This document shows positions 8,929-45,681 of a stretch of 57,376 nt of DNA, piece after piece. Within the stretch, counting starts at the first letter, position 1. The number at the start of each line of letters is the position of its first letter. Both the position numbers and the translations under genes were made by a program. Source of the DNA: Bacteroidales bacterium Bact_13 (GTDB lineage Bacteria; Bacteroidota; Bacteroidia; Bacteroidales; UBA932); assembly GCA_001602845.1 (NCBI GenBank), contig LUZE01000145.1:1-57376 (forward strand), written 5' to 3'. The notes beneath the pieces were generated by a model. That model saw nothing but the letters and a program-made list of their open reading frames with translations. It searched no databases and had not been told where the DNA came from.

Positions 8929-10118
8929 GGGCGTTCCTCCAGGTATTGTTTGACAGCCGCCACCAGTGCCTCATTTTCTACTGCCGTCTGCGTAGCGATA
9001 CGGAAGTGGCCGGCGTCGAGTCCTTCGAAGTTCGAGGCGTCGCGGATCAGGATACCATGCCGTTCAGCGAGCCATTGCTTGAGGTCAGCGGCGCTGCCTT
9101 CTGCCAGGTGGCAGAGGAAGAAATGGGTTTGGGTCGGCTCGGCCGACAGGCCGGGCAAGGCGTTCAGGGCTTCGCGAAGCCGCCGGGTCTCGGCGAGCAG
9201 GGCATCAAGGTTGATGAGGCCGGTGTCGGGGTGTTCACAGAGATACAGGCCGGCTTCGATGGCCAGTGCATTAACGCTCCAGGGCATGCGCACGGCGCGG
9301 ATTCTTTCGATCAGCGCCGGGTTAGCGGTGACGTATCCGAGGCGCAGGCCGGGGATGGCGTAGCGTTTGGTCATCGAATGGAGTTGCACGACGTTCGGAT
9401 AGCGGACGGCTTCTGCGGCCGTTAGCAGGGGTTCTTTGGTGAAGAATCCATACGACTGGTCGATGACGAACACCGTCTCCGGATTCTCTTCGATGGCCGC
9501 CACAATCTGCTCCTTCGGCAGGACGCTTCCCGTCGGATTGTTCGGATTACACAACCACATAGTCATGCCCGGCTTGACCGGGCATCTCTCCGCTCGCTCC
9601 GCTCTTCCGGTTTCCGATTCGTTCGCCGATGCTCCAGGCGCAACCGGAACCGGTCGTTGCTGCGGGCTCTCGCCCCGACCGAACCGCGGTTGCTCCACCA
9701 GGCCCTCGCACGGCTCTCTCATCGGGCAATCCTCATCGCTACGCTCGCTTTGCATAAGCCAGAGCAGCGGAGCGAGCGCCACAGAGTGGGAATAGAGGGT
9801 GCAGGCGTCGGCGTATTCGTTGAAGGTGGGTTGAAGGATCGTCGTGCGGGCGCCGGCGAAGGCGTGGGCGGTCAGGTAGATGGCTTCGGTGGCGCCGTTG
9901 GTCACGCAGACGGCGGCGGGATCGATGCCCAGACGGCCGGCAAGAGCGCGCTCGAGCGAGTAGGGCTCCGGCTCCGGATAACGACCGATTGCATCAAGCC
10001 GCTGGCGCAGATGCGCCTTCAGCGGCTCCAGATCCACGTGCGCATACACATTGGAACTGAAATTCGCCAGTATCGGGCGCCCGAACCGGAATGCATCGTC
10101 GCCGTGTCCCTGAATCAT
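8925..10118 (-). CDS. cobD: L-threonine-O-3-phosphate decarboxylase (cobalamin), with in-frame repeat insert
   Basis: A 397-residue PLP-dependent aminotransferase-fold enzyme that makes (R)-1-amino-2-propanol phosphate for the corrin side chain. Visible features: NGATEAIYL, NPNNPTG, IDQSYGFF, and the PLP lysine in SMTKRYAIPGLRLGY. The family usually has 330-360 residues. The excess is an insert at about residues 116-186, between the SVALAPL strand and WLCNPNNPTG. The insert contains the repeat peptide [13 protein letters not shown] and ends in CPVKPGMT from the short palindrome. The insert keeps the frame. The ATG at 10118 overlaps the cobQ stop (ATGA), which decides the start. Whether the insert is tolerated is unknown. 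Confidence 0.9.
   Translation of the reverse strand: MIQGHGDDAFRFGRPILANFSSNVYAHVDLEPLKAHLRQRLDAIGRYPEPEPYSLERALAGRLGIDPAAVCVTNGATEAIYLTAHAFAGARTTILQPTFNEYADACTLYSHSVALAPLLWLMQSERSDEDCPMREPCEGLVEQPRFGRGESPQQRPVPVAPGASANESETGRAERAERCPVKPGMTMWLCNPNNPTGSVLPKEQIVAAIEENPETVFVIDQSYGFFTKEPLLTAAEAVRYPNVVQLHSMTKRYAIPGLRLGYVTANPALIERIRAVRMPWSVNALAIEAGLYLCEHPDTGLINLDALLAETRRLREALNALPGLSAEPTQTHFFLCHLAEGSAADLKQWLAERHGILIRDASNFEGLDAGHFRIATQTAVENEALVAAVKQYLEERP
9561..9773 (-). repeat. In-frame coding repeat insert in cobD
   Basis: About 213 bases with no counterpart in the enzyme family. From right to left on the plus strand it holds the 71-base core (9634-9704), a GCTCGCTCCGCTC segment and the palindrome ATGCCCGG-CTTGA-CCGGGCAT (9565-9585). 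The core is 69/71 identical to 12054-12124 in pduO. CGCTCGCTCCGCT at 9591-9603 is exactly inverted at 9766-9778, so the insert may be bounded by 13-base inverted repeats. Boundaries are inferred from the protein, not from an empty site. Confidence 0.8.
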
Positions 10119-11603
10119 CGTTTCCCCCGTAAGATGTCGTAAAGTAGCGGCACGTCCATGTATTTGCGCACATGGGCGGCCAGCTTGTCGTATTGTTCTT
10201 CCTTGAAGGCGTGATAATCGAAGGACGTGGCCGCCTTCGCGAGCTTGCCGCTGTGCGGCGCCAGCAGCCGGTCGATGAAAGTCGGGTTGTCGAGGATGCC
10301 GTGGATGTAGGTGCCCATGCACTTTTCATCCACGAAACAGCCGTCCCCCTGGCCGTCCTCCAGTCGGTTCAGCGGCGTAAACGCACTTCCTTCCACGGGC
10401 AGGGTCTTGCCCATGTGGATCTCATAACCTTCCATCGTCGCACCTGAACTGCCGGCGGCCGTGAAACGGACCTGGCGCGTCACCTTCTCGCCCAGCATCT
10501 CCGTCACCATCGGCAGCAGGCCCAGGCCGGGCATTGCCTCAATGGTGCCTTCCACGTGGTGCGGGTCGCGGATCTGCGTGCCCATCATCTGGTAGCCGCC
10601 GCAGACGCCCAGTACCGTGGCACCTTCGCGGCGGGCGCGCAGGATGGCCTGGGCCACGCCGTTGCGCCGCAGTTCGTACAGGTCGTCGAGCGTGCTCTTG
10701 CTGCCCGGCAGGATAAGGATGTCGGCCTTGGCCAGTTCATCCACGTTGTTGCTGTAGAAGAGATGGACGCGCGGATCACGCTCCAGGACGTTGAAATCCG
10801 TGAAGTTGCTGATGTGGCGCAGCAGCACCACCGCCACATTGATTTTGCCCCGCTGTGCCGCGGCGCTCTTGGCGGCCAGGGCCACCGAATCTTCTTCTTC
10901 GATGTGGATGTCGTGGTAATAGGGCACGACGCCCAGCACAGGGATTCCGCAGAGGTCTTCGAGCATCTTCCTGCCTTCTTCGAAGAGCCGAAGGTCGCCG
11001 CGGAACTTGTTGATGAGGATGCCCTTCACGTATTTGCGCTCTTCGGGCCGCAGGAGCATGATCGAGCCGTACACGCTGGCAAAGACGCCGCCCCGGTCAA
11101 TATCGCCCACCAACAGTATGTCGGCGCCGGCATGCATGGCCATCGGCACGTTGACCAGGTCGCTGTTTGATTTCGGCCAGGCTGCCGGCACCTTCCATGA
11201 CGATGGGGTTGTGGCGGGCGGCGAGCCGGTCGTAAGCGGCATAGACAGCTTCCCGGAGCTCCTCGCGGCCTTCCTTCCGGAAATAGTCGTAGGCGTCGCG
11301 GTTGCCGATGGGGCGGCCGTTGAGCACGACCTGGGAGGTATGGTCGCTCTGGGGCTTGAGCAGCAGCGGGTTCATGTCGGTATGGCACGGGATGCCGGCG
11401 GCTTCGGCCTGGACGGCCTGGGCGCGGCCGATCTCGAGTCCTTCGGGGGTGGCGAAGGAGTTGAGGGCCATATTCTGGGCCTTGAAGGGTGCGGGGTTAT
11501 AGCCGTCCTGCCGGAAGATGCGGCAGAGGGCCGTGGCCAGGATACTCTTGCCGACGTCGCTGCCGGTTCCGGCGAGCATCACGGGATGGAGTCGTTCCTT
11601 CAT
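10115..11603 (-). pseudogene. cobQ: Cobyric acid synthase, broken by a one-base frameshift
   Basis: CobQ (CbiP) amidates four side chains of adenosylcobyrinic diamide. The two halves are in different frames. The first (from ATG 11603) gives [12 protein letters not shown] (ATPase P-loop), AQNMALNS and [12 protein letters not shown]. The second gives [18 protein letters not shown], then DIDRGGVF, and the glutaminase-type GVCGGYQMMG and GTYIHGILDNP. The switch falls in the AAA at 11166-11168 (TTT on the plus strand): removing one A restores EIN-SDLVN, as the family has, and a 495-residue protein of normal length. Both halves are otherwise well conserved, so this is either a very recent mutation or a homopolymer error in the sequence. 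It overlaps its neighbours by ATGA at both ends. Confidence 0.88.
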
Positions 11604-12331
11604 TTCTGGTTCTTGTAGGCGAAGGCTTTCCAGCGTTCTTCGGGCCAGTCCTGCCGGGTGAGTTCGCAGCGGGCCATGACGAACAGGAGGTCGGAGAGGC
11701 GGTTGATGTATTTCAGGACGTCTTCGGGGACAGGGTCCTGGCGGTTGAGTGTCCAGAGGCGGCGTTCGGCGCGGCGGCAGACGGCGCGGGCGAGTTGGAG
11801 CTGGGCGGCGAGGGGTGTGCCGCCGGGCAACAGGAAATGGAGGCTGGGGCCGCTGGCTTCTGTGAGGGCGTCCATGGTGGCTTCGATATGGGCGACGAGG
11901 TTTTCGGGCAGGGCATTGGGGTTTTTCTGGCGCTCCGCCGAGGGTGTAGCCACGAGGCTCATGACGGTCATCAGGTTCTTCTGTGCCTCATACAGGATGG
12001 CGTCGATCGACGCTCGCTCCGCTCTGTCGGATTGCTGTGAGTGAGGCTCTGCCCCAGGCGCAACCGGAGCCGGTCGTTGCTGCGAGCTCTCGCCCCGACC
12101 GAACCGCGGTTGCTCCACCAGGCCGGCGCACGCCTCACTCACCGGAATGCCTCCCTCGCTACACTCGCTATCAGGGCACATCAGCATAGAGCGGATGAGG
12201 CCAAGGTGGCAGTTGAGTTCGTCGAGGTCGCCGTTGGCTTCGATGCGGGGGTCGTCTTTGGGGACGCGGGTGCCGCCGTGGATGCCGGTGGTTCCGGCAT
12301 CTCCGGTGCGGGTATAGATGCGGTTGGCCAT
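11600..12331 (-). CDS. pduO: PduO-type ATP:cob(I)alamin adenosyltransferase, with in-frame repeat insert
   Basis: A 243-residue enzyme that transfers the adenosyl group of ATP to Co(I) corrinoids. The N-terminal [10 protein letters not shown] and later [12 protein letters not shown], then LYEAQKNLM and [20 protein letters not shown], identify the PduO/EutT-like family. The family usually has about 185-195 residues. Residues about 51-108 are extra, splitting LIRSML from DAILYEAQ; they carry [13 protein letters not shown] and RAER like the cobD insert. The frame is kept throughout. The stop overlaps the cobQ ATG (ATGA), and the gene starts 10 bases after the nucleoside hydrolase stop, so it is an internal operon gene. 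Confidence 0.9.
12008..12181 (-). repeat. In-frame coding repeat insert in pduO
   Basis: About 174 bases inside pduO. The core 12054-12124 is identical to the cobD copy at 69 of 71 positions and is read in the same frame. The segment CGCTCGCTCCGCTCT at 12011-12025 is shared with 9591-9605, and TCGCTACxCTCGCT lies at the far end in both. The sequence between these shared parts differs, so the element is modular. Confidence 0.8.
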
Positions 12332-12341
12332 CGTCGCAGGG

Positions 12342-13706
12342 TTAGTGCTGGATGGCCATCAGGCGGATGTATTTCAAGACGATGTCACACCAGACGGGGT
12401 CACCGGGTTCCTGGTAGCGGCAGTTGCCGTTCGGGTCGGGGGTGAAGAGGGTTTCGCCTTTGGGGGTGAGGGTGACCCAGCCGCGTTCGGAGAGTTTGTA
12501 GAGGTCGTCACCCTCGACGGCGTTGATCACGGCCTGCGGGTCCCACATCTTCTGGCCGGTGTCGCAGTTCAGGAACTGGTAGGTCCATTTGATGGGATGG
12601 CAGTCGGTCCAGTTCAGGTCGGCAATGACCTGTTCCGGCCTGTAGTCGAGCGGGTCGCCGACCTCACCGGGCGAGAACACCACGTCAACCTCTTTCGGCA
12701 GCAGCTCGAAGAACTTGAGTGAGAAGTCGATGGCCTGCAGGAAGTTATAATCGGGTTCGACGGCTTTGCCGAACACGCCGCCCATCGCGTAGATGGCCTT
12801 CACCTTCGTGCGGACCAGGTCGACGCCGTTGAGCGGGGAATACTCGTCCGGACCGGATTCGAGCAGGCGTGCCAGCGAGGTGACGAAGCCGATGGAGGCG
12901 ATGGTCACCGATTTGTCGGGCTGCTCGGACAGGAGCTTGCGGTACAGTTTGTAGGCTTCCATGTACGATCCGTCGTCACCGATCGAACGCTTGAACATAA
13001 GTTCGGAATCGACCGTGCGGGCGTAAGCCAGGTTGTGGTAGGGGATCCACACCGGCGGATGTTTCACGCCGTTGGTTTCCAGGCCGATGGGGATGTCGGG
13101 ATAGCCGTAGTAGAGGTTCATCGCATCGACGATGTCGGCGTTGGACTTGCCCATCCGGTCCACGATGACGCCGAGGAGCTGGCAACGCTGCATTTCCATG
13201 TAGCGGTAGAGCATCATCAGGGCGAAGAGGTCGTCGGTCGAGGAGCCCATGTCGGTGTCGAGGATGATGCGGATGTCTTCCTGCTCGTAGTTGCTCTTCA
13301 CGTTGATGCCCTTGGCCAGGTCATACACGGTATGCTGCTGGTTCTCCCGGGCGAAAGCCAGCGCTGCGGCCAGGCTGTCTTCCGGGAAGATGATGGTGCT
13401 GTCGAAATAATACTTGTCTTCCAGGGGGTCGTACCAGCCGCCCACGATGTTGTTGTGGGCATGGGCGTGCTTGATGACGGCCGGCAGGCTCTTCTTGTCG
13501 AAGCTGTTCTGGGTGGCGATATACGATACGGCCAGGCCCTGGGTGGGCTGGCGGAGCGAATCGAGGCTGAGCGTGAAGCCTTCGGGGTACATCTGGCCCA
13601 TCGCCCAGATGACGCTTACAAGTTCTTTGTCGGAAACCCGCTGCTGGGCCTGTCCTGCGAAGGGGATCATCAGCAGCAGTGCGAGAAGAAGTGCAGTTTT
13701 TTTCAT
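12342..13706 (-). CDS. Exported nucleoside hydrolase-like protein with N-terminal extra domain
   Basis: A 454-residue protein with a signal peptide (MKKTALLLALLL...GQAQQ). Residues about 145-445 resemble the inosine-uridine nucleoside hydrolase family: ILDTDMGSSTDDLFAL holds the metal-binding DTD...DD, but with extra residues compared with the standard DTDPGxDD. Residues about 25-130 (GFTLSLDSL, AVSYIATQNSF, GGWYD, YYFDSTIIF) form a separate domain that I associate with uncharacterised Bacteroidetes and mobile-element proteins; its function is unknown. It heads the pduO-cobQ-cobD-cbiB operon 10 bases before pduO. A link to base salvage for the cobalamin lower ligand is only an inference. The ATG at 13706 is chosen over a TTG three codons upstream. 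Confidence 0.75.
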   Translation of the reverse strand: MKKTALLLALLLMIPFAGQAQQRVSDKELVSVIWAMGQMYPEGFTLSLDSLRQPTQGLAVSYIATQNSFDKKSLPAVIKHAHAHNNIVGGWYDPLEDKYYFDSTIIFPEDSLAAALAFARENQQHTVYDLAKGINVKSNYEQEDIRIILDTDMGSSTDDLFALMMLYRYMEMQRCQLLGVIVDRMGKSNADIVDAMNLYYGYPDIPIGLETNGVKHPPVWIPYHNLAYARTVDSELMFKRSIGDDGSYMEAYKLYRKLLSEQPDKSVTIASIGFVTSLARLLESGPDEYSPLNGVDLVRTKVKAIYAMGGVFGKAVEPDYNFLQAIDFSLKFFELLPKEVDVVFSPGEVGDPLDYRPEQVIADLNWTDCHPIKWTYQFLNCDTGQKMWDPQAVINAVEGDDLYKLSERGWVTLTPKGETLFTPDPNGNCRYQEPGDPVWCDIVLKYIRLMAIQH

Positions 13707-13746
13707 ATCGGTCAAAAGTTTGTTCCGTAGAGGTGAGATTAATTCT

Positions 13747-13754
13747 CAAAGATA
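13747..13754 (-). promoter_or_regulatory. -7 promoter element, pduO-cbiB operon
   Basis: TATCTTTG on the minus strand, 40 bases upstream of the nucleoside hydrolase ATG. It is the only good promoter seen ahead of the minus-strand cobalamin operon. No cobalamin-riboswitch-like structure could be recognised in the 83-base gap. Confidence 0.55.
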
Positions 13755-13789
13755 CGAAAAAACTGCAAAATTCCGCGCATTCCGGGCCG

Positions 13790-15082
13790 TCAGGAATCGA
13801 GGATTTTCTTGTAGGGGCGGATCATGCCTTCGGACATCTTGCCGCCCATCTTCGCTTTCAACTTCTTGTTGTTCATCATCCCGCCGACGAGGTACATGCT
13901 CAGCGACGTCTTCCAGCGCTTCTGCGGGAAGTCGTACTGGCCGTGGCTCTTGAAGAACTTGTGGTCCGCGCGCATGAGCCCGCGCATCTGGTAGATCAGG
14001 TCGCGGAAGATCTTCATGCCGCCCACGCCCAGGAAGTTCTGGGGCGGCGTGTACGTGTGATCCAGGGCGTAACAGAGCGTGTTGGAGAGCGTTTCCACAT
14101 TGTGCTTCCAGTCGCCTTCGTCGCTGGCTACGCCGGCCAGGAAGTTGCCGCCCACCTGGGCGCGGGCTTCCAGTAGCAGGCGCAGGTTCTCCTCCCGGGA
14201 ATAAGCGCCTTCCACCAGGTAACCGAAGGGCGTGCCCATGGTCACCGTGCGGTGCCCGTTGCAGAACTGGCGGTCGTCGTACATCTTGAAGCGGGCGCCC
14301 ATGGAGTGGTCCTGAATGCGGAAGGCGTAGAGGATGGCGTCGTGCTTGTGGATGGTGTTCCGCAGGAAGTCGTCGAAGCCGTCCTTGTACACGCACTTGC
14401 CAGTAGCGGCGCAGCTGAAGCAGCTCAGGCAGCCGCCCTGGAAGGGGAAGTCCTCGATGTTGATGACGTCGCAGGCGTACGGGAATACGGCCGTGAAATG
14501 GTCGATCATTTCTTTCAGCCGCGTGTCGTCGGGCAGCAGGTCGGTGACGATGACGGCTTTCTTCGCCGTGTCCTTTTCCGTGACGGGGCTAGCCGGTGCC
14601 GAATCGCCGCCCTGCATCTGCCATAGCACGAGATCCAGCCAGTCCGTGGCCTGTTTTTGCCCTTTTTCGGTCAGGATGTCCTCCATGTCGGCCGACAGGC
14701 CTTCCAGGCAGCGGATTCCCAGATCGGCGCAGTTGTCGCGGATGAAGCGGTGGGCCGTGATGTCGTAGAAATGCTTCGACGTGCTGACCTGTGTGGCGGC
14801 CTTGCCGGAGAAATCCTCGCCGGAGGCCTTCATCAGCTCGATGAAGCGGTGCAGCTGGTACGGCACGAGGAAGGTGTACACGGGGTAGCAGAAGACAATG
14901 AGGTCGGCGGCGTGCAGGGCTGCCAGGGCGGGGGAGAAGTCCTTCTCGAGGGCCTTGATCTTCTGACCGGCGTTCAGGTAGCTGAATTTCAGTTGCGGGA
15001 AGTGTTTTTCCAGATACAAGCAGGTATGCAGCGTGATGGAGTCGTTACCTTTCGGGCTTCCAACAATGACGAGAATGTTCAT
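13790..15082 (-). CDS. Two-domain flavodoxin / iron-sulfur flavoprotein-like oxidoreductase
   Basis: A 430-residue protein made of two NADPH-dependent FMN reductase-like halves. The first (about 1-165) begins MNILVIVGSPKGNDS, the FMN phosphate loop, with FCYPVYTFLVPYQ. The second (from about 180) has an iron-sulfur-flavoprotein-type cysteine cluster GGCLSCFSC..GKC near residue 213, then MGTPFGYLVEG. A cytoplasmic flavin (and possibly [4Fe-4S]) electron carrier is likely. It lies head-to-head with the corrin-ring operon and just upstream of the pduO operon. Co(II) corrinoid reduction ahead of adenosylation is a reasonable guess, not shown by the sequence. Confidence 0.78.
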   Translation of the reverse strand: MNILVIVGSPKGNDSITLHTCLYLEKHFPQLKFSYLNAGQKIKALEKDFSPALAALHAADLIVFCYPVYTFLVPYQLHRFIELMKASGEDFSGKAATQVSTSKHFYDITAHRFIRDNCADLGIRCLEGLSADMEDILTEKGQKQATDWLDLVLWQMQGGDSAPASPVTEKDTAKKAVIVTDLLPDDTRLKEMIDHFTAVFPYACDVINIEDFPFQGGCLSCFSCAATGKCVYKDGFDDFLRNTIHKHDAILYAFRIQDHSMGARFKMYDDRQFCNGHRTVTMGTPFGYLVEGAYSREENLRLLLEARAQVGGNFLAGVASDEGDWKHNVETLSNTLCYALDHTYTPPQNFLGVGGMKIFRDLIYQMRGLMRADHKFFKSHGQYDFPQKRWKTSLSMYLVGGMMNNKKLKAKMGGKMSEGMIRPYKKILDS

Positions 15083-15101
15083 GATGATTGTTTCGTTTCT
15101 A

Positions 15102-15109
15102 CAAAGATA
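15102..15109 (-). promoter_or_regulatory. -7 promoter element, flavoprotein gene
   Basis: TATCTTTG on the minus strand, 19 bases before the ATG at 15082. It diverges from the cbiH-cbiC promoter about 100 bases away. Confidence 0.55.
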
Positions 15110-15205
15110 CGAATAAAGTTCGCTTCGCTGCTCTGTTTTTCGTCCCGCTCGCAGAAAAAATGCTCACGGTTCCGAAAAATCACCCGCAGCTCGCTCACTT
15201 TTTAT

Positions 15206-15213
15206 TATATTTG
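15206..15213 (+). promoter_or_regulatory. -7 promoter element, corrin-ring operon
   Basis: TATATTTG six bases before the ATG at 15220. If the usual Bacteroidetes spacing holds, the long cbi transcript starts at or next to its start codon, leaving no room for a 5' riboswitch. Confidence 0.6.
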
Positions 15214-15219
15214 TAAGAT

Positions 15220-16629
15220 ATGAGCAAAGCGAAGATTTTTGTGGCCGGGATCGGGCCGGGAAGTGCGGGCGACGTGACGCCCGCGGTGCTCGAGGCCATC
15301 CGTCAGTCCGATGTCATCATCGGCTATAAATATTATTTCCAGTTCGTCGAGCCGTATGTGTCTCCCGGGGCGGAGTGTGTGGACACGGGCATGAAGAAGG
15401 AGCGCGAGCGGGCGGAAGAGGCCTTTGTGCGGGCGGAACAGGGGAAGACGGTATGCGTGGTCAGTTCCGGCGACGCGGGCATCTACGGCATGGCACCGCT
15501 GATCTGGGAGATGAAACGCGAACGCGGCAGCGACGTCGAGATCGAGGTGCTGCCGGGCATCAGCGCTTTCCAGAAAGCCGCCTCGCTGCTCGGTGCGCCC
15601 ATCGGCCACGACTTGTGCATCATCTCGCTCTCCGACCTGATGACACCCTGGGAAAAGATAGAAAGGCGCATCCGTGCCGCCGCCGTGGCCGATTTCATCA
15701 CGGCGGTCTACAATCCCAAGAGCAACGGCCGCTACTGGCAGCTGTACCGCCTGCAGGAGATCTTCCTGCAGCACCGTGACCCCGCCACGCCGGTGGGCTT
15801 TGTCCGCCAGGCAGGCCGCGACGACCAGGAGGTGACCCTGACCACGCTCGGTGACTTCGACCCGGAAGCCGTGGACATGTTCACCGTGGTGCTCATCGGC
15901 AACTCGCAGTCCTACTGCTTTGAAGGGAAGTTCATCACGCCGCGCGGCTATTACCGCGAAGACCGCGAAGAAGGCGCGAAAGGCATCGGGCAGGAGATCA
16001 TGATCGAGAGCTTCCGTACGATCGAAAAGGAACTGCGCCATCCCGATATCCCGCTTGGCTGCAAATGGCCGCTGCTGCACGCCATCCATACCACGGCCGA
16101 CTTCGATATGGAGAACATCCTGCGCGTTGATGAAGGAGCGGTCGAATCGCTCTACGCCGGCTTCGCGGAAGGCCGCATCAAGACCATCGTGACCGACGTG
16201 ACCATGGCCGCTTCGGGCATCCGGAAGGGCGCCCTGCAGCGGCTCGGCGCGGAAGTGAAATGCTATCTCTCCGATCCGCGCGTTGCGGAAATGGCGGCAG
16301 AAAAGGGGATTACGCGTACCCAGGCGGGCATCCGGCTGGCCGTGGAGGAGCATCCCGACGCCCTCTACGTATTTGGCAACGCCCCCACCGCGCTGATGGA
16401 GCTCTGCGACCTGGTCCGGAAGGGAAAGGCCCGTCCTGCCGGCATCATCGCCGCCCCGGTGGGCTTCGTCCACGTGCGCGAGAGCAAGCACATGGTCAAG
16501 CCGTTCCGGCAGATTCCCAAACTGATCGTGGAAGGCCGGAAAGGCGGCAGCAACCTGGCCGCGACGCTGGTCAATTCGATTCTTTGCTTCAATGACGCCG
16601 AAGCACTAAAACCCGGCCGCGATGTGTAA
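15220..16629 (+). CDS. Bifunctional precorrin-3B C17-methyltransferase / precorrin-8X methylmutase (CbiH-CbiC)
   Basis: A 469-residue fusion. Residues 1-250 are a tetrapyrrole methylase (CbiH/CobJ): FVAGIGPGSAGDVTP, VVSSGDAGIYGMA, VLPGISAFQKAA, AVYNPKSNGR. Residues from about 257 are CbiC/CobH, which moves the C11 methyl to C12: FRTIEKEL, VTDVTMAASGIRK, and AAPVGFVHVRESK with the methylmutase histidine region. Such fusions are known in Bacteroidetes. The stop overlaps the next start by 8 bases. First gene of the plus-strand ring operon. No repeat insert is present in this gene. Confidence 0.94.
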   Translation: MSKAKIFVAGIGPGSAGDVTPAVLEAIRQSDVIIGYKYYFQFVEPYVSPGAECVDTGMKKERERAEEAFVRAEQGKTVCVVSSGDAGIYGMAPLIWEMKRERGSDVEIEVLPGISAFQKAASLLGAPIGHDLCIISLSDLMTPWEKIERRIRAAAVADFITAVYNPKSNGRYWQLYRLQEIFLQHRDPATPVGFVRQAGRDDQEVTLTTLGDFDPEAVDMFTVVLIGNSQSYCFEGKFITPRGYYREDREEGAKGIGQEIMIESFRTIEKELRHPDIPLGCKWPLLHAIHTTADFDMENILRVDEGAVESLYAGFAEGRIKTIVTDVTMAASGIRKGALQRLGAEVKCYLSDPRVAEMAAEKGITRTQAGIRLAVEEHPDALYVFGNAPTALMELCDLVRKGKARPAGIIAAPVGFVHVRESKHMVKPFRQIPKLIVEGRKGGSNLAATLVNSILCFNDAEALKPGRDV

Positions 16630-17827
16630 GGATTCCGTCTCGCCGCGCCAGCGGTTTATCGTCATCGGCATGACCGACGACCGGGAGGTATGGTTCCCGC
16701 CGGAAGTGCAGGCAGCCATCGCTGCGGGCCGCGTGTTTTCGGGTGGAAAACGGCATCATGAAATCGTGGCCCCGCTGCTTCCGGAAGGTGCTCGCTGGAT
16801 CGACATTACCGTGCCGCTGGAAGCGGTGTTCGCGCAATATGCCGGCCAGCCCGAAGTGGTGGTCTTCGCCTCCGGCGACCCGCTTTTCTTCGGTTTCGCC
16901 AACACGCTGCGGCGCGAGCTGCCTGACGCCGATATCACGGTTTTCCCGTCGTTCAACTCGCTGCAACTGCTCGCACATCGCATGCAGCTGCCCTATGCCG
17001 ACATGCGCACCGTTTCTTTGACTGGCCGGCCCTGGGAAGCTTTCGATACCGCACTGATCACCGGCGAAAGGCTCATCGGCGCGCTGACCGACCGGCAGAA
17101 GACCCCGGCCATGATTGCCCGGCGCATGCTGGATTATGGCTACGACAACTACCGGATGACCGTCGGCGAATGCCTGGGCAACCGGGAGACGGAACGCGTC
17201 CGTACCCTTTCTCTGGTCGAGGCTGTTTCGGCCGAATATACTTTTCCGAACTGCCTGGTGCTGGAACGGACAGCCCTGCGGAACCATCCCTTCGGCCTGC
17301 CCGAACATGATTTCGCCCTGCTCGACGGCCGGGTGAACATGATCACCAAGATGCCCATCCGCCTGCTGACCCTCAGCCAGCTCGACCTGGCCCGCCGCAC
17401 TTCGTTCTGGGACATCGGCTTCTGCACCGGCTCGGTTTCAATCGAAGCCCGGCTGCAGTTCCCGCATCTCAAGGTGACTTCCTTTGAAATCCGCGAAGCC
17501 GGGCGCGAACTGATGGAGCAGAACTCCCGCAAGTTCGGCGCCCCCGGCATCGACGTCCATATCGGCGACTTCCTCGAAACCGACCTCACCGGCCTGCCCG
17601 CCCCCGACGCCGTCTTCATCGGCGGCCATGGCGGCAAACTCATCGAAATGGTCCAGCGCATCGACCGCGTCCTCCTGCCCGGTGGCACGATCGTCTTCAA
17701 CGCCGTCAGCCAGCAAAGCCAGGACCTCTTCCGCGAAGCCGTCGCCACCGTCCACCGCCAGATCACCAGCACCATGCACGTCGCCATCAACCAGTTCAAC
17801 CCCATCGAAATCCTCAAAGCCGAATGA
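16622..17827 (+). CDS. cobL: Bifunctional precorrin-6Y methyltransferase/decarboxylase (CbiE-CbiT)
   Basis: A 401-residue fusion that methylates C5 and C15 and decarboxylates the acetate at C12. The N-terminal CbiE half has FIVIGMTDD, SGGKRHHEI, VVVFASGDPLFFG and GECLGNRETE. The CbiT half starts near residue 238 (MITKMPIRLLTLSQLDL) with the SAM-binding WDIGFCTGSVSIEA and AVFIGGHGG. Size and order match CobL. The ATG at 16622 lies inside the last codons of the upstream gene and the stop overlaps the next start (ATGA), so translation is tightly coupled. No repeat insert is visible. Confidence 0.94.
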   Translation: MCKDSVSPRQRFIVIGMTDDREVWFPPEVQAAIAAGRVFSGGKRHHEIVAPLLPEGARWIDITVPLEAVFAQYAGQPEVVVFASGDPLFFGFANTLRRELPDADITVFPSFNSLQLLAHRMQLPYADMRTVSLTGRPWEAFDTALITGERLIGALTDRQKTPAMIARRMLDYGYDNYRMTVGECLGNRETERVRTLSLVEAVSAEYTFPNCLVLERTALRNHPFGLPEHDFALLDGRVNMITKMPIRLLTLSQLDLARRTSFWDIGFCTGSVSIEARLQFPHLKVTSFEIREAGRELMEQNSRKFGAPGIDVHIGDFLETDLTGLPAPDAVFIGGHGGKLIEMVQRIDRVLLPGGTIVFNAVSQQSQDLFREAVATVHRQITSTMHVAINQFNPIEILKAE

Positions 17828-19671
17828 CCCATATCGCCATCATATTAGTATCCGAATCCTCCTTACCGTTGGCGCACCGCGTAGCGGAGCGGGCGGCGCG
17901 TTGGCCTGAACGCGAGACCCCCGGTCAGGCCGGGGGTGACGTCAGGATCTACACGAAAAAAGATATTGGATCCTACGCACCATATCTGAAACAACATTGG
18001 CAAGACTTCAGCGCCATTATCTTCATCGGCGCCCTCGGCATCTGCGTCCGAAGCATCGCCCCCGCCCTGAAAACCAAATATAACGACCCCCCCGTCGTCT
18101 GCATCGACAGCACCGGAAAATACGTCATCCCCGTCACCTCCGGTCACGTCGGCGGCGCCAACGATCTGGCACGAACCATCGCCGCAGCCATCGGTGCCCA
18201 GGCTGTCGTCACCACCCAGAGCGACAACGAAGGCCTCTGGGCCCTCGATACCCTCGACCGGCAATACGGCTGGCTCGCCGAAACCACACCCGCGCGCATG
18301 AACCGCGCCATCTTCGCCTTCGTCCGGAAACAACCCACCGCCCTCCTGCTCGAAACCCGCGATGCCGGCACCGACGCCCTCGAACGCACAAAACCTGACC
18401 ACGTCACCATTTTCTATCGCCGCGAAGACCTGAACCCCAAGGATTTCGGCCTGCTCATCGCCGTCACGCCCCGCACCCTTCCCGACGTGCCGGAAGGTCT
18501 TTCCGTGCTCGCATTCCGACCGCCCGTGCTTCATCTGGGCTTCGGCTGCCGTAAGCAGTGTGACCCGGCCGGCATCCCTGAAGCCATTGAGGCGAAACTG
18601 CTGGCGGAGGGCTTTTCGCCCAACTCCGTCGCGACGGTCGGAACCGTCGAATTGAAGAAAGACGAACGGCTGCTCCAGACCCTGGTGTCGCGCTGGCCCC
18701 AGGCACATGCTGAGATCTATCCCGCTGATACCCTGGCGGCCATAGAAGTGCCGAATCCCTCCGAAAAGGCGCTTGCCGCCACTGGCAGCGCCGGTGTCGC
18801 CGAAGCCGCGGCCCTTGCTTCCGCCCACGGCGGACCGCTCTGGATCGAGAAGCAGAAAGGAAAGGTTTCTGAGGGCAACGACTTTACCTTTGCCCTGGCG
18901 CAGGAGGCCGCTACGCTCCGTGCCGGCCATATCGAAATCGTGGGGGCAGGCCCGGGCGACCCGGAACTCGTTTCCGTACGCGGAAAGCGTTTCCTCCAGC
19001 AAGCCGACCTCATCCTGTATGCCGGCAGCCTCGTCCCGGTCGAGTTGACGCATTATGCCAAGCCCGGCTGCACGGTACGCAGTTCTGCTTCCATGGATCT
19101 TGAGGAGCAGTTTGCGCTGATGAAGGAGTTCTATGACAAGGGTTTGCTCGTGGTGCGGCTGCATACCGGCGATCCCTGCATCTACGGCGCCATCCAGGAG
19201 CAGATGGCCTTTTTCGACCGTTACGGTATGCGTTACCACATCACGCCCGGCATTTCGGCGTTCCAGGCCGCGGCTGCTGCGCTGCGTTCCCAGTTCACGA
19301 TTCCGGAGAAGGTGCAGACCATCATCCTGACGCGGGGCGAGGGGCGCACGCCGATGCCCGAGCGGGAACAGTTACACAAGCTTGCGCAGTCCCGGAGCAC
19401 GATGTGCATCTATCTCAGCGCGGCCATTGTGGAGGAAGTACAGGCCGAGTTGTTGCAGGCGTATCCGCCGGAAACGCCCGTGGCGGCTTGCTACAAGCTT
19501 ACCTGGAAGGAAGAGCGTATTTATCGCGGCGAGCTTCGCGACCTGGCGAAGATCGTCCGCGAGAACAACCTGACGCTCACGACGCTTTTGGTGGTGGGCG
19601 ATGCGATCGGGAACCGCGAGGGACTCTCGCGGCTTTATGCCCACGAATTCAAGCATCTGTTCCGATCATGA
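17824..19671 (+). CDS. Fused cobalt-precorrin-5A hydrolase / precorrin-4 C11-methyltransferase (CbiG-CbiF)
   Basis: A 615-residue fusion. The CbiG half (1 to about 355), which opens the lactone and releases acetaldehyde, shows FIGALGICVRSIAP, VTSGHVGGANDLA and LGFGCRK. The CbiF/CobM half from about residue 367 shows IVGAGPGDPELVSVRGKR, LYAGSLVP, HTGDPCIYGA and TPGISAFQAAAA. Residues about 24-39 (AARWPERETPGQAGG) interrupt the N-terminal strand-turn between LAHRVAER and DVRIYTKKD and derive from a palindrome ACCCCCGG-TCAGG-CCGGGGGT; the frame is kept. ATGA overlap with the upstream gene; 28-base gap to the next. Confidence 0.93.
   Translation: MTHIAIILVSESSLPLAHRVAERAARWPERETPGQAGGDVRIYTKKDIGSYAPYLKQHWQDFSAIIFIGALGICVRSIAPALKTKYNDPPVVCIDSTGKYVIPVTSGHVGGANDLARTIAAAIGAQAVVTTQSDNEGLWALDTLDRQYGWLAETTPARMNRAIFAFVRKQPTALLLETRDAGTDALERTKPDHVTIFYRREDLNPKDFGLLIAVTPRTLPDVPEGLSVLAFRPPVLHLGFGCRKQCDPAGIPEAIEAKLLAEGFSPNSVATVGTVELKKDERLLQTLVSRWPQAHAEIYPADTLAAIEVPNPSEKALAATGSAGVAEAAALASAHGGPLWIEKQKGKVSEGNDFTFALAQEAATLRAGHIEIVGAGPGDPELVSVRGKRFLQQADLILYAGSLVPVELTHYAKPGCTVRSSASMDLEEQFALMKEFYDKGLLVVRLHTGDPCIYGAIQEQMAFFDRYGMRYHITPGISAFQAAAAALRSQFTIPEKVQTIILTRGEGRTPMPEREQLHKLAQSRSTMCIYLSAAIVEEVQAELLQAYPPETPVAACYKLTWKEERIYRGELRDLAKIVRENNLTLTTLLVVGDAIGNREGLSRLYAHEFKHLFRS
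17917..17937. repeat. Coding palindrome in cbiG-cbiF
   Basis: ACCCCCGG-TCAGG-CCGGGGGT, an 8+5+8 perfect palindrome inside the CbiG half. It has the same geometry as the ATGCCCGG family and the same arms as 21602-21622. It is translated as TPGQAGG. Confidence 0.8.
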
Positions 19672-19699
19672 TTGTACGGGATACATCTCTTTCGAGACT

Positions 19700-21697
19700 A
19701 TGATTTTAATATTCGGCGGCACGACGGAAGGAAGGCTCGCGGTTCGGGTGGCGGACGCGGCGGGTTCGCCGTACTGGTACTCGACGCGGGGCGACCTGCA
19801 GCAAATTGAGTGCAAGCATGGGACGCATATTACCGGCGCTTTGGACGAGGCCGCGATGGCTGCGTTCTGTACGGGGCATGGCATCCGGCTGCTGGTCGAT
19901 GCGGCGCATCCTTTCGCGACCGAACTTCACCGTACCGTGGCCTCGGTTGCCGAGTCGCTCGACCTTCCCGTGGTTCGTATCGAGCGCCAATACACCGCCC
20001 CCGACCCGAACGTCATGCCCGGCCCCGACCCGAACGTCATGCCCGGCCCCGACCGGGCATCTCTCCGTTGGTGTGACGACTACGGCGATGCCATCCGCCA
20101 GCTGGAATCCGACGGGATTACCCGTCTTCTGGCGCTGACGGGGGTGCAGACCATTGGCAAGCTGCGCGCGTTTTGGACGCAGCACGACTGCTGGTTCCGG
20201 ATCCTTCATCGCGACGAGTCGCTGGAAAAGGCTGCCGCACAGGGATTTCCGTCCGAAAATCTGGTCTATTACAATGAAGAGGATGAGGCAGCGCTGATTG
20301 TGCGATTACAGCCACAGGCGATCTTGACGAAGGAGAGCGGGGAGTCGGGCGGCTTTTCGCAGAAGGTGGCGGCAGCGCAGGCTGCCGGGATTCCGGTGTA
20401 TGTGGTCCGTCGGCCGGCCTTGCCGCCGGGTTTCGAGATCGTTACCGGCGAGCATGGTCTCCGCAAGGCGATTGAGCGGCTGGTGCCGGGCTTCTTCCCG
20501 TTGCGCAGCGGCTTCACGACCGGCGCGTGTGCCACGGCGGCTTCGAAGGCAGCTTTACTGGCTTTATTGGGCCAGCCGGTGGGGGAGACCGTCGATGTCC
20601 TTTTCCCCAATGGCGAAACGCTCGCCCTGCCCGTCGCGCTGCAGAGCCCGCAAGCAAAGGCGGCGTGCGCAGGCCTGGTGGAGCGTTCACGGTTCCGCCG
20701 TGGCGAGTGCTCGACAGCCACGCGGGGTCTGAACGCGCCTGGGGCAAAGCAGCCGCAGTTTGCGGGCTCTGCTACGGCAGTCGTGATTAAGGATGCGGGA
20801 GACGATCCGGATGTGACAAACGGCCGGGAGATTGTCGCAACCGTCGCATTCAGTGATACCCCGGGGATTCATTTTCTGCAGGGAGAGGGCGTCGGCCGCG
20901 TGACGCTGCCGGGCCTTGGCCTGCCGATCGGCGGCCCCGCCATCAACCGCGTGCCGCGGCAGATGATCGAGCAGAATCTTTCCGCCCTCTATGACGGCGG
21001 CCTCGACGTCACGATTTCCGTACCCGGCGGCCGGGAACTGGCGCAGCGTACGTTCAACCCGAAGCTGGGCATCGTGGACGGCATTTCGATCATCGGTACT
21101 TCCGGTATCGTCCGGCCGTTCTCGAACGAAGCCTTCGTCGATGCTATCCGGCGGGAGGTTGAGGTGGCTATCGCCGTCGGCGCGCCTCAACTGGTCATCA
21201 ACTCGGGTGCCAAGAGTGAGGCCTTCCTCAAGGCGCGTTTTCCCGACCTGCCGCCGCAGGCGTTTGTGCATTATGGCAATTTCATCGGCGAGACCCTGAA
21301 GATCGCGTCCGACCTGAAGGTCCCGCACGTGACGATGGGCATCATGCTGGGCAAGGCCGTCAAGCTGGCCGAAGGCCATCTCGACACCCATAGCAAGAGC
21401 GTGGTGATGAACAAGGCGTTCCTGAAGGAGGTCGCCACGGAGGCCGGCTGTTCGCCGGCCGCCGCCGAAGCCATCGACCGCCTGACACTCGCCCGCGAGC
21501 TCTGGTCGGCGCTGCCTGCCAACGATGCCCGCCTTTTCTTCTCCGCCATCCTCTCCCGCTGCCACTCTGCTTGCTCCACTGTATACCCCAACCCGAACGT
21601 CACCCCCGGCTTGACCGGGGGTGACGTCATGCCCGGCCCCGACCGGGCATCTCTCACCATCCTCTTGCTCGACGAAGACGGCAATATTTTCGAATAG
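19700..21697 (+). CDS. Fused precorrin-6A reductase / cobalt-precorrin-5B C1-methyltransferase (CbiJ-CbiD) with three in-frame inserts
   Basis: A 665-residue fusion. CbiJ (1 to about 262) starts MILIFGGTTEGR, with DAAHPFA and LALTGVQTIGKL. CbiD (from about 264) has LRSGFTTGACATAA, VIKDAGDDPDVTNG, GEGVGRVTLPGL, ISIIGTSGIVRPFS and HYGNFIGETL. Three stretches have no family counterpart. One is at about 101-122 in CbiJ (PDPNVMPG twice, then PDRASL). The second, at about 319-357 in CbiD, carries GLVERSRFRRGE. The third is at about 629-652, just before the final TILLLDEDGNIFE. All keep the frame. The start at 19700 is chosen because upstream in-frame codons do not resemble CbiJ. Last gene of the ring operon. 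Confidence 0.92.
   Translation: MILIFGGTTEGRLAVRVADAAGSPYWYSTRGDLQQIECKHGTHITGALDEAAMAAFCTGHGIRLLVDAAHPFATELHRTVASVAESLDLPVVRIERQYTAPDPNVMPGPDPNVMPGPDRASLRWCDDYGDAIRQLESDGITRLLALTGVQTIGKLRAFWTQHDCWFRILHRDESLEKAAAQGFPSENLVYYNEEDEAALIVRLQPQAILTKESGESGGFSQKVAAAQAAGIPVYVVRRPALPPGFEIVTGEHGLRKAIERLVPGFFPLRSGFTTGACATAASKAALLALLGQPVGETVDVLFPNGETLALPVALQSPQAKAACAGLVERSRFRRGECSTATRGLNAPGAKQPQFAGSATAVVIKDAGDDPDVTNGREIVATVAFSDTPGIHFLQGEGVGRVTLPGLGLPIGGPAINRVPRQMIEQNLSALYDGGLDVTISVPGGRELAQRTFNPKLGIVDGISIIGTSGIVRPFSNEAFVDAIRREVEVAIAVGAPQLVINSGAKSEAFLKARFPDLPPQAFVHYGNFIGETLKIASDLKVPHVTMGIMLGKAVKLAEGHLDTHSKSVVMNKAFLKEVATEAGCSPAAAEAIDRLTLARELWSALPANDARLFFSAILSRCHSACSTVYPNPNVTPGLTGGDVMPGPDRASLTILLLDEDGNIFE
19999..20060 (+). 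repeat. Coding palindrome with 24-base tandem duplication in cbiJ
   Basis: A 24-base unit ending in CGTCATGCCCGG occurs twice in tandem (19999-20022 and 20023-20046), giving PDPNVMPG twice. It is followed by the completed palindrome ATGCCCGG-CCCCGA-CCGGGCAT at 20039-20060. Confidence 0.85.
20654..20770 (+). repeat. In-frame coding repeat insert in cbiD
   Basis: About 117 bases inside the CbiD half. The core 20672-20742 is 71 bases, the same length as the cobD and pduO cores and read in the same frame relative to the host gene. It is more diverged: GGCCTGGTGGAGC, CGGTTC, GGCGAG and GCGCCTGGGGCA are conserved, while the middle differs. It is translated ACAGLVERSRFRRGE, then APGAK. Confidence 0.75.
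21602..21650. repeat. Two adjacent coding palindromes at the cbiD 3' end
   Basis: ACCCCCGG-CTTGA-CCGGGGGT (21602-21622) is followed six bases later by ATGCCCGG-CCCCGA-CCGGGCAT (21629-21650). Both are translated in frame within cbiJ-cbiD, adding about 24 residues before the conserved C-terminal strand. Confidence 0.85.
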
Positions 21698-26307: not shown

Positions 26308-27078
26308 ATGTTGATGCTCCTGGCCACATTGATCTTCTTTACGCGGCTGCCGTTCTGGCGGCTGACGGACGTACCTGCCGATGATTTCAAGCGGGTGGTG
26401 CCGCGCTGGCCCATCGTCGGGTGGCTTACAGGAGCTATGATGGCCCTCACCATCTGGCTCGGCAGCCACGTGTTCCCGCTTATGGTGGCGTGGATTCTGG
26501 CGCTCGTCGTGCGCCTGGTGCTCACGGGATGCCTGCACGAGGACGGACTGGCCGATTTCTTCGACGGATTCGGCGGCGGCAAGTCGCGGGAAAAGACCCT
26601 GGCCATCATGAAGGATTCGCACATCGGCACGTTTGGCGTGATCGCGCTGGTCGTCTATTTCGCGCTGCTGCTGCAACTGCCTGCCGTGCTTTCGCGCGAC
26701 ACGCTCATCATCGTCGTGCTGTGCAGTGACTGCTGGGCAAAGTGCTGCGCCGCCCAGCTCATCAACTTCCTGCCTTATGCCCGCACGGAAGAAGAAGCCA
26801 AGAACAAGACCGTCTATGAACGGATGAAGCTCGGCGAACTGCTGCTCTGCGTTTTCTTCGGCCTGGCACCTTCCTTCATCTTCTCATTCGCCCTGGGCTG
26901 GCTGCCCCACAGCTTCTGCCTGCTGCTCCTCGTGCCGGTCGTCGTGATGCTGCTGCTCACCCTGCTGATGAAGCGCCGCATCCAGGGATATACCGGCGAC
27001 TGCTGCGGCGCCACGTTCCTGATCTGCGAGCTCTCGCTCTACCTGGCCGTCCTGGCCGCGTATCCTCATTGGGTGTAG
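26308..27078 (+). CDS. cobS: Adenosylcobinamide-GDP ribazoletransferase CobS
   Basis: A 256-residue polytopic membrane protein that joins adenosylcobinamide-GDP to alpha-ribazole (phosphate), the last assembly step. It has FFTRLPF at the N-terminus, the acidic motif TGCLHEDGLADFFDGFGGG, MKDSHIGTFGV and GYTGDCCGA near the C-terminus, with about six hydrophobic segments between. Length is typical. Divergent from cobU. Its TAG stop is fused to a palindrome of the ATGCCCGG family (27077-27098). Confidence 0.93.
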   Translation: MLMLLATLIFFTRLPFWRLTDVPADDFKRVVPRWPIVGWLTGAMMALTIWLGSHVFPLMVAWILALVVRLVLTGCLHEDGLADFFDGFGGGKSREKTLAIMKDSHIGTFGVIALVVYFALLLQLPAVLSRDTLIIVVLCSDCWAKCCAAQLINFLPYARTEEEAKNKTVYERMKLGELLLCVFFGLAPSFIFSFALGWLPHSFCLLLLVPVVVMLLLTLLMKRRIQGYTGDCCGATFLICELSLYLAVLAAYPHWV

Positions 27079-27247
27079 GCCCGGCCCCGACCGGGCATGA
27101 CGAACAGTCAAGCCGGGCATGACAGCAGGGGCGGGAGCGGAAATAAACGAATTTGCTCCCCGACAGCTGAAAATAGCCGATCGGGGAGCAAAACAAGCGG
27201 TTTTTGCGCCCGGGGACGCTAATCCCGGGGATACCTGGGGCGTCCCG
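27077..27247. repeat. Intergenic palindrome plus half copy after cobS
   Basis: The gap between cobS and the DUF1015 gene holds a palindrome AGGCCCGG-CCCCGA-CCGGGCAT (27077-27098, one arm mismatch where it overlaps the cobS stop) and a half copy TCAAGCCGGGCATGAC (27108-27123). It also contains the hairpin listed separately and a weaker inverted pair GGGACGC (27213-27219) / GCGTCCC (27240-27246). No gene is seen. Confidence 0.75.
27152..27192. terminator. Strong hairpin between convergent cobS and DUF1015 gene
   Basis: TTTGCTCCCCGA (27152-27163) pairs perfectly with TCGGGGAGCAAA (27181-27192) across a 17-base loop. It sits between two converging genes and has a T-rich run (GGTTTTT) about 6 bases further on the plus side, so it may end transcription from both directions. 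Confidence 0.6.
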
Positions 27248-32732: not shown

Positions 32733-33857
32733 ATGAAAAGATTTACTGAAGTGGTACTGATGCTTTGCATCGCAATGATGTGTACTACCTCCTTTGAGGC
32801 ACAAGGCCAGAATCGTCGTCACGGCGGTGGCTCTTCCCATTCGCCCAGGACGGAACACCGCGCCCCCTCCGGGCACAGCGGGCCGAGTACGAAAATGTCG
32901 GCCCCACGCAACGATAATCGTGGCTCGCAGATGAACCGCAGTCACGGCTCGTCTCAGATGAATCGTAACCACAGCGGCAACATCGCGCGTAACGACCGCC
33001 CGAGCAATCGTCCGAGCGACCGCCCTGGCGTGCGGTCGAACAATCGTCCCAGCGACCGTCCGAGCGTTCGGCCGAACAATCGCCCGAACGACCGTCCCAG
33101 CATGCGGCCGAACAACCGCCCGAATGATCGTCCGGCCCAGCGGCCCGGCAACACCCACGGCTCCCGTCCCGGTTCAGTCGGCCACGGTCCCCATCCCGGA
33201 CACGGCCCCGCTGCTGTGCACAGCCCCCGTCCTTCCCACCGCGCCCCGATCTACTCGCGTCCGTATCTGGAGCCGCGCTACCGTCCGGTGCCGTCCTACC
33301 GCTACGGCTACCATTATTTCGGCCACCGGATCCATTCCCTTCCGATCGGCTATTCGCTGATCCGGGTCGGCTATCGCGACTACTATTATTACGACGGTAT
33401 CTACTACCGCCCGTATTGGGACGGCGGTTACTATGTGTGCCGTCCGCCGCTCGGTACCCGCATCGCATCGACGTTGTTTGACATCGCGATGACCTCCATC
33501 GCCATCAACACCATCCGCAATGAGATCGAGCGGGCACAGTACGCGGCAGAGCTCTCGAGCATCTATGCGGCGCGCAACGCCGACTATACGGTCCGTACCA
33601 GCGACGATTACTACAACTCGAACCTGGCTGCCCAGACCGGCCAGGAATACTATTACCAGGACGGCGTGTTTTACACGTTGAAGAACGGTGAATACTGCGT
33701 GATCGAAGCGCCCATCGGCGCTCTGGTCGAGGAAATCCCTGAAGACTACGACGAAGTCGAACTCGGCGGCAAGACCTACTACCAGGTCGAAGACACGCTC
33801 TTCAAGACCACCATCATCGACGGCAAGCTTCTCTTCGAAGTCGTCTGCAACCTGTAG
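32733..33857 (+). CDS. Exported Arg/Pro-rich repeat protein, DUF6515-like
   Basis: A 374-residue exported protein. The signal peptide (to about residue 25) is followed by a low-complexity stretch rich in R, N, P, S and H (about 28-190) that includes four 12-residue repeats, RP(S/N)DRPxxRxxN, at residues 93-140. The C-terminal part (about 200-374) is Tyr-rich and ordered: YYYYDGIYYRPYWDGGYYVCRPPLGT, then two copies of YYYQDGVFYTL-type motifs, resembling the DUF6515 family of Bacteroidetes envelope proteins. A cell-envelope or polyanion-binding role is possible, but no function is known. It ends at a strong bidirectional terminator. Confidence 0.75.
   Translation: MKRFTEVVLMLCIAMMCTTSFEAQGQNRRHGGGSSHSPRTEHRAPSGHSGPSTKMSAPRNDNRGSQMNRSHGSSQMNRNHSGNIARNDRPSNRPSDRPGVRSNNRPSDRPSVRPNNRPNDRPSMRPNNRPNDRPAQRPGNTHGSRPGSVGHGPHPGHGPAAVHSPRPSHRAPIYSRPYLEPRYRPVPSYRYGYHYFGHRIHSLPIGYSLIRVGYRDYYYYDGIYYRPYWDGGYYVCRPPLGTRIASTLFDIAMTSIAINTIRNEIERAQYAAELSSIYAARNADYTVRTSDDYYNSNLAAQTGQEYYYQDGVFYTLKNGEYCVIEAPIGALVEEIPEDYDEVELGGKTYYQVEDTLFKTTIIDGKLLFEVVCNL
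33009..33152 (+). repeat. Four in-frame 36-base tandem repeats
   Basis: Four degenerate 36-base units encode RPSDRPGVRSNN, RPSDRPSVRPNN, RPNDRPSMRPNN and RPNDRPAQRPGN within the disordered part of the DUF6515-like protein. Copy number is likely to vary between strains. Confidence 0.85.
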
Positions 33858-37018: not shown

Positions 37019-37192
37019 GTTTGCTTGCGCCTTGCGCGGGTGGGTGGATGCTCCAGAACCCGTGCCACCCTCGGCACCGTAAGAGGGAGGGGCCCATGCG
37101 CAGCATGGGAGGGGTCGAGCGTAGCGAGACGGTTCTGGAGCAACACCCAGAGCGCCAAGCAAGCAAACAGATGCCCGGTCGGGGCCGGGCAT
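37019..37192. repeat. Inverted-repeat (MITE-like) element plus palindrome after recQ
   Basis: The 194-base gap between convergent recQ and glutamine synthetase is filled by repeats. TGTTTGCTTGC (37019-37029) is inverted at 37159-37169, and GCTCCAGAACC (37050-37060) at 37131-37141, giving a 151-base element with two nested arms. A central palindrome CCCATGC-GCA-GCATGGG lies at 37093-37109. One base later is ATGCCCGG-TCGGGG-CCGGGCAT (37171-37192). Its right 31 bases recur exactly at 64-94. No ORF of note is inside. Confidence 0.8.
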
Positions 37193-37204
37193 GACGTAAA
37201 GGGC

Positions 37205-45500: not shown

Positions 45501-45522
45501 CGTCATGCCCTGACGATTTCAG

Positions 45523-45569
45523 ATGCCCGGTCAAGCCGGGCATGACAAAGAGGTCAAGCCGGGCATGAC
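45523..45569. repeat. Intergenic palindrome and half copy before dprA
   Basis: ATGCCCGG-TCAAG-CCGGGCAT at 45523-45543, then a half copy GTCAAGCCGGGCATGAC at 45553-45569. The 237-base gap between queA and dprA otherwise holds the queA terminator and an upstream region with TAATTTAG, a possible weak -7 box, about 10 bases before the dprA ATG. Confidence 0.8.
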
Positions 45570-45681
45570 AGAAAGATTAGCCGGTCATTACATAGGTTTT
45601 ATTGATTTTCGGGAGAGGAAGATATTGACGTTTTGCGGGGGCGGATGGGAAAAGGAGTCTGTAATTTAGCGGTAAAAAAAG

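Follow-up and report, generated by a model that had tools for sequence, protein, structure and literature searches.

The window analysed here, a stretch of 57,376 nucleotides (nt) on contig LUZE01000145.1 of the Bacteroidales bacterium Bact_13 genome (GCA_001602845.1), carries three copies of a 71-base repeat, each lying in frame within a cobalamin enzyme gene: cobD, pduO and cbiJ-cbiD. This repeat is the core of an imperfect palindrome of about 123 bp, in which a near-constant tag (GGCCTGGTGSAG) is joined to a hairpin whose arms vary among copies yet stay complementary. We interpret the copies as non-autonomous palindromic repeats that make up a family specific to one Bacteroidales genus, hereafter the tag-hairpin family, and that are tolerated as passengers in permissive loops of the host proteins; we assign this interpretation a probability of about 0.8. 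The copies would have spread genome-wide, mostly outside genes and often beside repetitive extragenic palindromic (REP) sequences of the CGTC type. Genic copies would survive at permissive loops or linkers of the host protein, provided that the frame stays open, and they would be translated as unstructured passenger peptides. Such loops could serve as shared docks, where species gain or lose palindromes of this or another family, nest one within another, or carry them in the opposite orientation, and arm-to-arm conversion may help to keep the arms complementary.

An earlier reading of the letters alone (the sequence-only reading) had reported the positions, strands and common host frame of the three 71-base segments, all of which were confirmed (Table 1). 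Direct comparison upheld the near-identity of the cobD and pduO segments (69/71) and the divergence of the third (47/71 with cobD and 48/71 with pduO); the next-best 71-mer of the window matches the pduO core at 36/71 positions. All three cores read GLVE[QR].RF.RGE...AP in the host frame, and the proposed host genes agree with the Pfam domains Cob_adeno_trans (pduO), Aminotran_1_2 (cobD) and CbiJ plus CbiD (cbiJ-cbiD). The repeat itself is thus real, although its limits had been drawn too narrowly: the matches to our covariance model span 123–126 nt, and cobD and pduO share 159 nt at 81% identity (9591-9749 and 12011-12169). Its palindromic nature is an addition to that reading. The pduO insert, which has a surrounding shell of the same kind as that in cobD, adds roughly 50 residues and the CbiD insert roughly 35, whereas the composite cobD insert adds roughly 50–65, giving a loop of 81 residues compared with 15–50 in other alleles.

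The evidence for the palindrome comes from covariation. We aligned 22 copies, 19 from the Bact_13 genome and three from relatives, oriented by the tag GGCCTGGTGSAGC, over 144 columns with 123 model positions. In the 7-bp arm adjoining the tag, 153 of 154 cells are paired, and each of the seven pairs is altered on both sides in some copy. Double-changed cells in this arm number 47 against a shuffled mean of 14, a count reached in 0/500 shuffles, although the shuffles overstate the significance because the aligned rows are related. Sliding the partner by 1–3 columns lowers pairing to 27–43%, a control that preserves relatedness but is biased towards a structure derived from these very sequences. 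Further pair types were no more numerous than in shuffles (303/500). The pattern extends to genes: among 17 genic copies at eight gene sites, with 10 distinct arms, the 7-nt arms are perfectly complementary in 13 and have one mismatch in four, compared with 1.9–3.0 mismatches on average for shuffled arms. Because the genic arms differ yet remain complementary, the palindrome is kept while its sequence changes, also inside genes. Intergenic copies have GTCGC...GCGAC ends.

Other searches were less discriminating. A sliding hairpin-energy scan of the window (140-nt windows, weaker strand) placed the pduO, cobD and cbiD copies at −1.9, −0.7 and −3.9 robust standard deviations, and it did not single them out, as unrelated places also lay beyond −3; it is therefore covariation, not energy rank, that supports the palindrome. 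Scanned against Rfam, the window plus five loci gave no match at the gathering score, and a spelled pattern for part of the repeat gave one match, which was unrelated. The tag pattern with up to two mismatches gave 69 matches, many of the weaker of which are chance, because the reversed control gives 29.

Further copies exist genome-wide: the covariance model found at least 26 matches in the Bact_13 genome and matches in at least 18 of 40 genomes of the genus (Bact_13 included), with at most 89 candidates scored per genome. Under stricter filters, and with at most 30 candidates scored per genome, none of 118 sampled genomes from other genera of the order carries a match. The named relatives are Bacteroidales bins whose sources, where titled, are mostly rumen or omasum. 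Seven Bact_13 copies on seven contigs have an identical 75-nt core, which points to recent spread. Gene context, judged by codon scores with cut-offs of our own setting, covered 25 of the 26 matches, and four of these 25 copies sit inside conserved genes. Three are the pduO, cobD and cbiD copies, and the fourth occupies the linker of an ABC-F ATPase gene, where its orientation is reversed. In the first codon scoring only this fourth copy was accepted as genic; the three window copies were accepted in the second and are also backed by Pfam, and the status of the other Bact_13 copies comes solely from the first. The second scoring covered 30 loci obtained from the model search, 28 of them from relatives, left out one Bact_13 locus (L141), and would have counted a frame-broken copy inside a gene as non-genic. 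Separately, an anmK-like gene of Bact_13 (L007, contig C23; named by eye) holds a short in-frame tag remnant, GCTCCACCAGGCC, with residues ...SLHQANARR..., possibly a decayed copy.

In relatives, 13 of the 28 loci from the model search passed the inside-gene test. Six genomes carry the family at one ABC-F site, in both orientations, two at a second ABC-F linker and two in dnaX; the remainder are single cases in rsmE, cbiD and a pseudouridine-synthase-like gene, the last named by eye, with no Pfam match in the scanned part. The dnaX copies belong to the pduO/cobD subfamily, in two other species and in the other orientation at 84–85% identity; no dnaX match was found in the Bact_13 genome. At rsmE, the Bact_13 genome has a REP pair where another species has the tag-hairpin family plus a REP. 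The idea that cobalamin genes are special is not favoured, although three of the four genic Bact_13 copies lie in the cobalamin cluster: relatives carry the family in ABC-F, dnaX, rsmE and other genes, and cbiB, cobJ and cbiET (16, 12 and 12 orthologues) lack recurrent inserts, with no gaps of at least 10 residues save one 13-residue gap in cbiB relative to L112.

The same surface loops occur filled and short, so that the in-frame inserts in conserved protein genes have orthologues without them. At pduO, 9 of 21 distinct alleles are long (22–68 residues between anchors, with recognisable repeat-family peptides) and 12 short (12–21 residues); at cobD, 6 of 16 have hairpin inserts and the remaining 10 have 15–31 residues; and among the 11 CbiD rows 6 hold an insert, which in two of them is reversed. 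The first set of pduO extractions covered 19 of 23 loci, whereas the allele table of pduO, cobD and cbiD used other anchors, was de-duplicated by DNA, dropped stop-bearing alleles and missed the Bact_13 cbiD allele. Short alleles, the empty sites that the sequence-only reading had asked for, are therefore present at all three sites, and pduO and cobD of Bacteroides, Parabacteroides and Alistipes are free of the segments (the distant loci held no cbiD). Together with the further copies in the genome, this means that the refuting outcomes named in that reading were not observed. Insert families, orientations and frames were assigned by eye, and the counts for relatives L097-L122 and for the G-numbered genomes, which overlap as judged by identical PduO sequences, were not added. 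At least one further insert family occupies the same loops (L129; pduO loci L069-L071 and L163), with peptides like SERSGG...RAFF.ER...SR.ASET...ERA.

At the first ABC-F site we classified 18 of 24 loci, G052 and G012 lacking an anchor and being read by eye, and 13 of the 18 alleles are filled, while G042, labelled empty, may hold a REP remnant. The contents comprise the tag-hairpin family in either orientation, single and double REPs, a REP composite and two other palindrome types; the Bact_13 allele at this shared site is a single in-frame REP. Both orientations occur at one site in cbiD, cobD and ABC-F, as judged by eye from the PPG motif. On a quickly built tree of the 18 species, in which one row is very long and two labels were set by eye, the nine states require 11 changes, where the least possible is eight and the shuffled mean 12.4 (11 or fewer in 22/200 shuffles). 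Insert content is scattered nearly as by chance. For folding of the insert DNA, a z-score of −3 or below against mononucleotide shuffles, which preserve base composition only, was reached by 19 of 30 filled alleles (pduO 3/9, cobD 5/6, cbiD 3/3, ABC-F 8/12) and by 1 of 29 short ones.

That the family moves we infer from such sequence comparisons, and the competing explanation is that template switching or gene conversion, between arms and between copies, maintains and remodels the palindromes where they stand, as in quasi-palindrome correction, with content being overwritten at lasting sites and little true transposition. We consider this less likely. It would account for arms that vary freely yet stay complementary, for the near-identity of the cobD and pduO copies 2.4 kb apart, and for loops filled in many species with changing content and orientation; repeat conversion and template switching have also been discussed for the coding palindromes of Nematomorpha mitochondria (PMC6649704). 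Some dispersal to new sites is nevertheless needed, because the same 75-nt core lies on seven contigs, where the left flanks are of five kinds and the right flanks also differ, and because the pduO/cobD subfamily recurs in dnaX of two other species.

Several observations weigh against tolerated passengers of a dispersing family. No transposase could be tied to the family in the Bact_13 genome, where the search covered the Y1 family; the sole Y1 transposase found there is flanked by a different hairpin. Neither a target-site duplication nor a parent element was identified, and genic copies have indistinct ends. Among the seven identical copies, two pairs share a left flank and may be parts of larger repeats. 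One cobalamin cluster contains three of the four genic Bact_13 copies, a clustering for which random landing does not account. Eleven of the 30 filled alleles miss a z-score of −3, six of the nine pduO alleles among them, the Bact_13 pduO copy standing at −1.4. Finally, some inserts are inherited by descent, so the alleles are not independent events; these shared inserts differ in length by multiples of three (for example, 117/114 and 132/147 nt) because their frames must stay open.

The Y1 (IS200-like) transposase gene encodes 307 amino acids (aa) (L066 946-1869, contig C124) and has the hairpins AATCGGTTGCG...CGCAACCGATT on both sides. Mobilisation by a REP-associated tyrosine transposase was not supported, as this single Y1_Tnp match is flanked by another hairpin. 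Parts of the Y1 hairpin occur near some tag-hairpin copies (L005, L023, L049, L054) and are perhaps the transposase's own miniature inverted-repeat transposable element (MITE).

The sequence-only reading had proposed a mobile or recombinogenic element under selection to be translatable. A dispersed in-frame repeat akin to the Rickettsia palindromic elements (RPEs) is what we find, and its movement is what the distribution suggests; selection for translatability is not supported. Such selection, or the supply of a useful peptide module to the enzymes, seems improbable to us. In its favour, all six genic copies in the tag direction are read in the GLVE frame, and 8 of the 11 in the opposite orientation in a PPGQ-type frame (by eye). 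Of 16 copies treated as intergenic, 14 have the PPGQ frame open, whereas 56% of random frames of the same composition contain a stop. However, the GLVE frame has stops in 10 of these 16 copies (the PPGQ frame in two), and genic copies in the opposite orientation draw on three frames, LHQA (two copies) and CTRP (one) being the others; the survival of harmless in-frame insertions therefore suffices, and selection acting on the host gene best explains why the frame in use is open. A useful module is also disfavoured by the many relatives without an insert in the same enzyme and by predicted disorder. In the AlphaFold model of PduO, the insert (about residues 52–96) has block-mean predicted local distance difference test (pLDDT) values of about 43–64 and is flanked by two confident helices; in CobD, residues 124–181 have values of about 25–44 and lie between a helix and the strand before the CNPNNP motif. 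Both inserts look like disordered loop extensions in these models, although low pLDDT is also typical of novel segments missing from the alignment. The inserts would presumably be neutral.

Ribosomal bypassing or splicing out, by which the inserts would be missing from the final protein, is very improbable. Strong coding hairpins do recall the bypassed palindromic elements of Magnusiomyces mitochondria (PMC6649704), but bypassing would not need an open frame, and all 18 classified ABC-F alleles each lie in one open frame of 602–896 aa in a protein search that did not require it; long PduO protein matches are likewise without internal stops. The allele extraction for pduO, cobD and cbiD and the second gene test required an open frame and are not evidence on this point. 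The insert peptide is probably retained in the protein, as the open frames suggest and, by analogy, the Rickettsia gmk enzyme, which was shown to be translated and active with its RPE (PMC2229807, PMC10969869). An artefact of the metagenome bin, which comprises 178 contigs with 4.96% estimated contamination, can practically be dismissed, as the family recurs at these sites in separate assemblies of related genomes.

The second repeat of the window is a REP with the pattern CGTC-ATGCCCGG-CTTGA-CCGGGCAT. Searched as GCCCGGTCNNGCCGGGCATGAC with up to two mismatches, it has 94 matches in the Bact_13 genome and none in the reversed control. A REP lies within 60 bp of 12 of the 26 tag-hairpin copies compared with 0.31 expected under uniform placement, an expectation that would rise several-fold if both were confined to intergenic DNA. 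Exact REPs lie in gene-like frames in 6 of 63 cases in the examined stretches of genome plus the window, a count that misses the REP in cobD.

Rickettsia and Wolbachia are the best-known carriers of in-frame palindromes. The RPEs are palindromes of about 105–150 bp found between genes and in frame in unrelated conserved genes (PMC2229807, PMC10969869), and the tag-hairpin family resembles them as a palindromic repeat of about 100–150 bp, able to form a long hairpin, that is intergenic and also in frame inside unrelated conserved genes. It differs in phylum and lifestyle, in its near-constant tag and interchangeable arms, and in that the Bacteroidales loops hold different families and orientations in sister species. 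It appears to be separate from the RPEs, a distinction drawn from descriptions and not from sequence comparison. CGTC-tagged REPs are described in Bacteroidetes and inside open reading frames, and two Xanthomonas species have different REPs at about the same recB site (PMC3733652). Our second repeat, for example in cobD, fits that description in its tag, its 8-bp stem starting with A-T and its 5-nt loop, although its tail starts with CT instead of the consensus CCA. The tag-hairpin family, in contrast, is several times longer, has another tag (GGCCTGGTG) and nested stems over about 75 nt, and often adjoins a CGTC REP. Bacterial MITEs such as ERIC/RU-1 and YPAL/RU-2 are similarly short, non-autonomous and mostly intergenic, with some in-frame fusions (PMC2229807), whereas for the tag-hairpin family neither a target duplication nor a terminal repeat linked to a transposase was identified. 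REPs are also hot spots for the landing of insertion sequences (PMC1525189); tag-hairpin palindromes likewise cluster beside REPs, but here the neighbour is another palindrome and some sites lie inside genes.

Coding palindromes are known as a kind. As far as the literature searched goes, what is new is this family, the genus that carries it and the extent to which shared loops exchange one palindrome for another, in either orientation; no title or abstract opening in that literature, which excluded most subscription papers, mentions the family. A gut Bacteroidales group that has many sequenced relatives, and in which several families occur in both orientations at common loops that are filled in some alleles and short in others, allows measurement of how proteins gain internal segments from repeat DNA, of how such DNA reaches permissive sites, and of what mobilises or preserves tag-hairpin repeats that lack an evident transposase. 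More tentatively, and at odds that we place below even, certain loops of housekeeping and cobalamin enzymes could be heritable palindrome docks, where an early in-frame REP served as a harmless landing pad, with tag-hairpin and other palindromes later inserted or exchanged inside or next to it in either orientation, hence the different translated peptides at one spot in sister species. The 12-base tag with freely exchangeable arms might then be the recognition part of a mobility system based on single strands.

Three further in-frame REP-like insert sites, absent from the sequence-only reading, lie in cbiG-F, the CbiJ half and the CbiD C-terminus (Table 1).

Table 1. In-frame palindromic inserts in cobalamin genes of the window
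Feature	Position	Strand	Description
Composite cobD insert	~9561..9760	-	REP 9562-9583 plus tag-hairpin; model match 9611-9733; core 9634-9704; ends by eye
pduO insert	~12008..12178	-	Tag-hairpin; model match 12031-12153; core 12054-12124; ends by eye
Insert in CbiD half of cbiJ-cbiD	20640..20768	+	Diverged tag-hairpin; model match 20643-20768; core 20672-20742
REP-like palindrome, cbiG part of cbiG-F	17917..17942	+	In frame; residues ...RETPGQAGGDVR...; site variable among orthologues
REP-like repeats, CbiJ half	20010..20065	+	In frame; residues DPNVMPGPDPNVMPGPDRAS
REP-like palindromes near CbiD C-terminus	21589..21655	+	In frame; residues NPNVTPGLTGGDVMPGPDRAS

Elsewhere in the window, cobQ/cbiP (10115-11603, minus strand) is broken across two frames, with the break within about 11097-11242, either by a sequencing error or in reality. 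Further REP-like repeats and hairpins, apparently intergenic, lie at 27072-27240, 37136-37201 and 45514-45592, and four tandem 36-nt direct repeats occupy 33001-33144.

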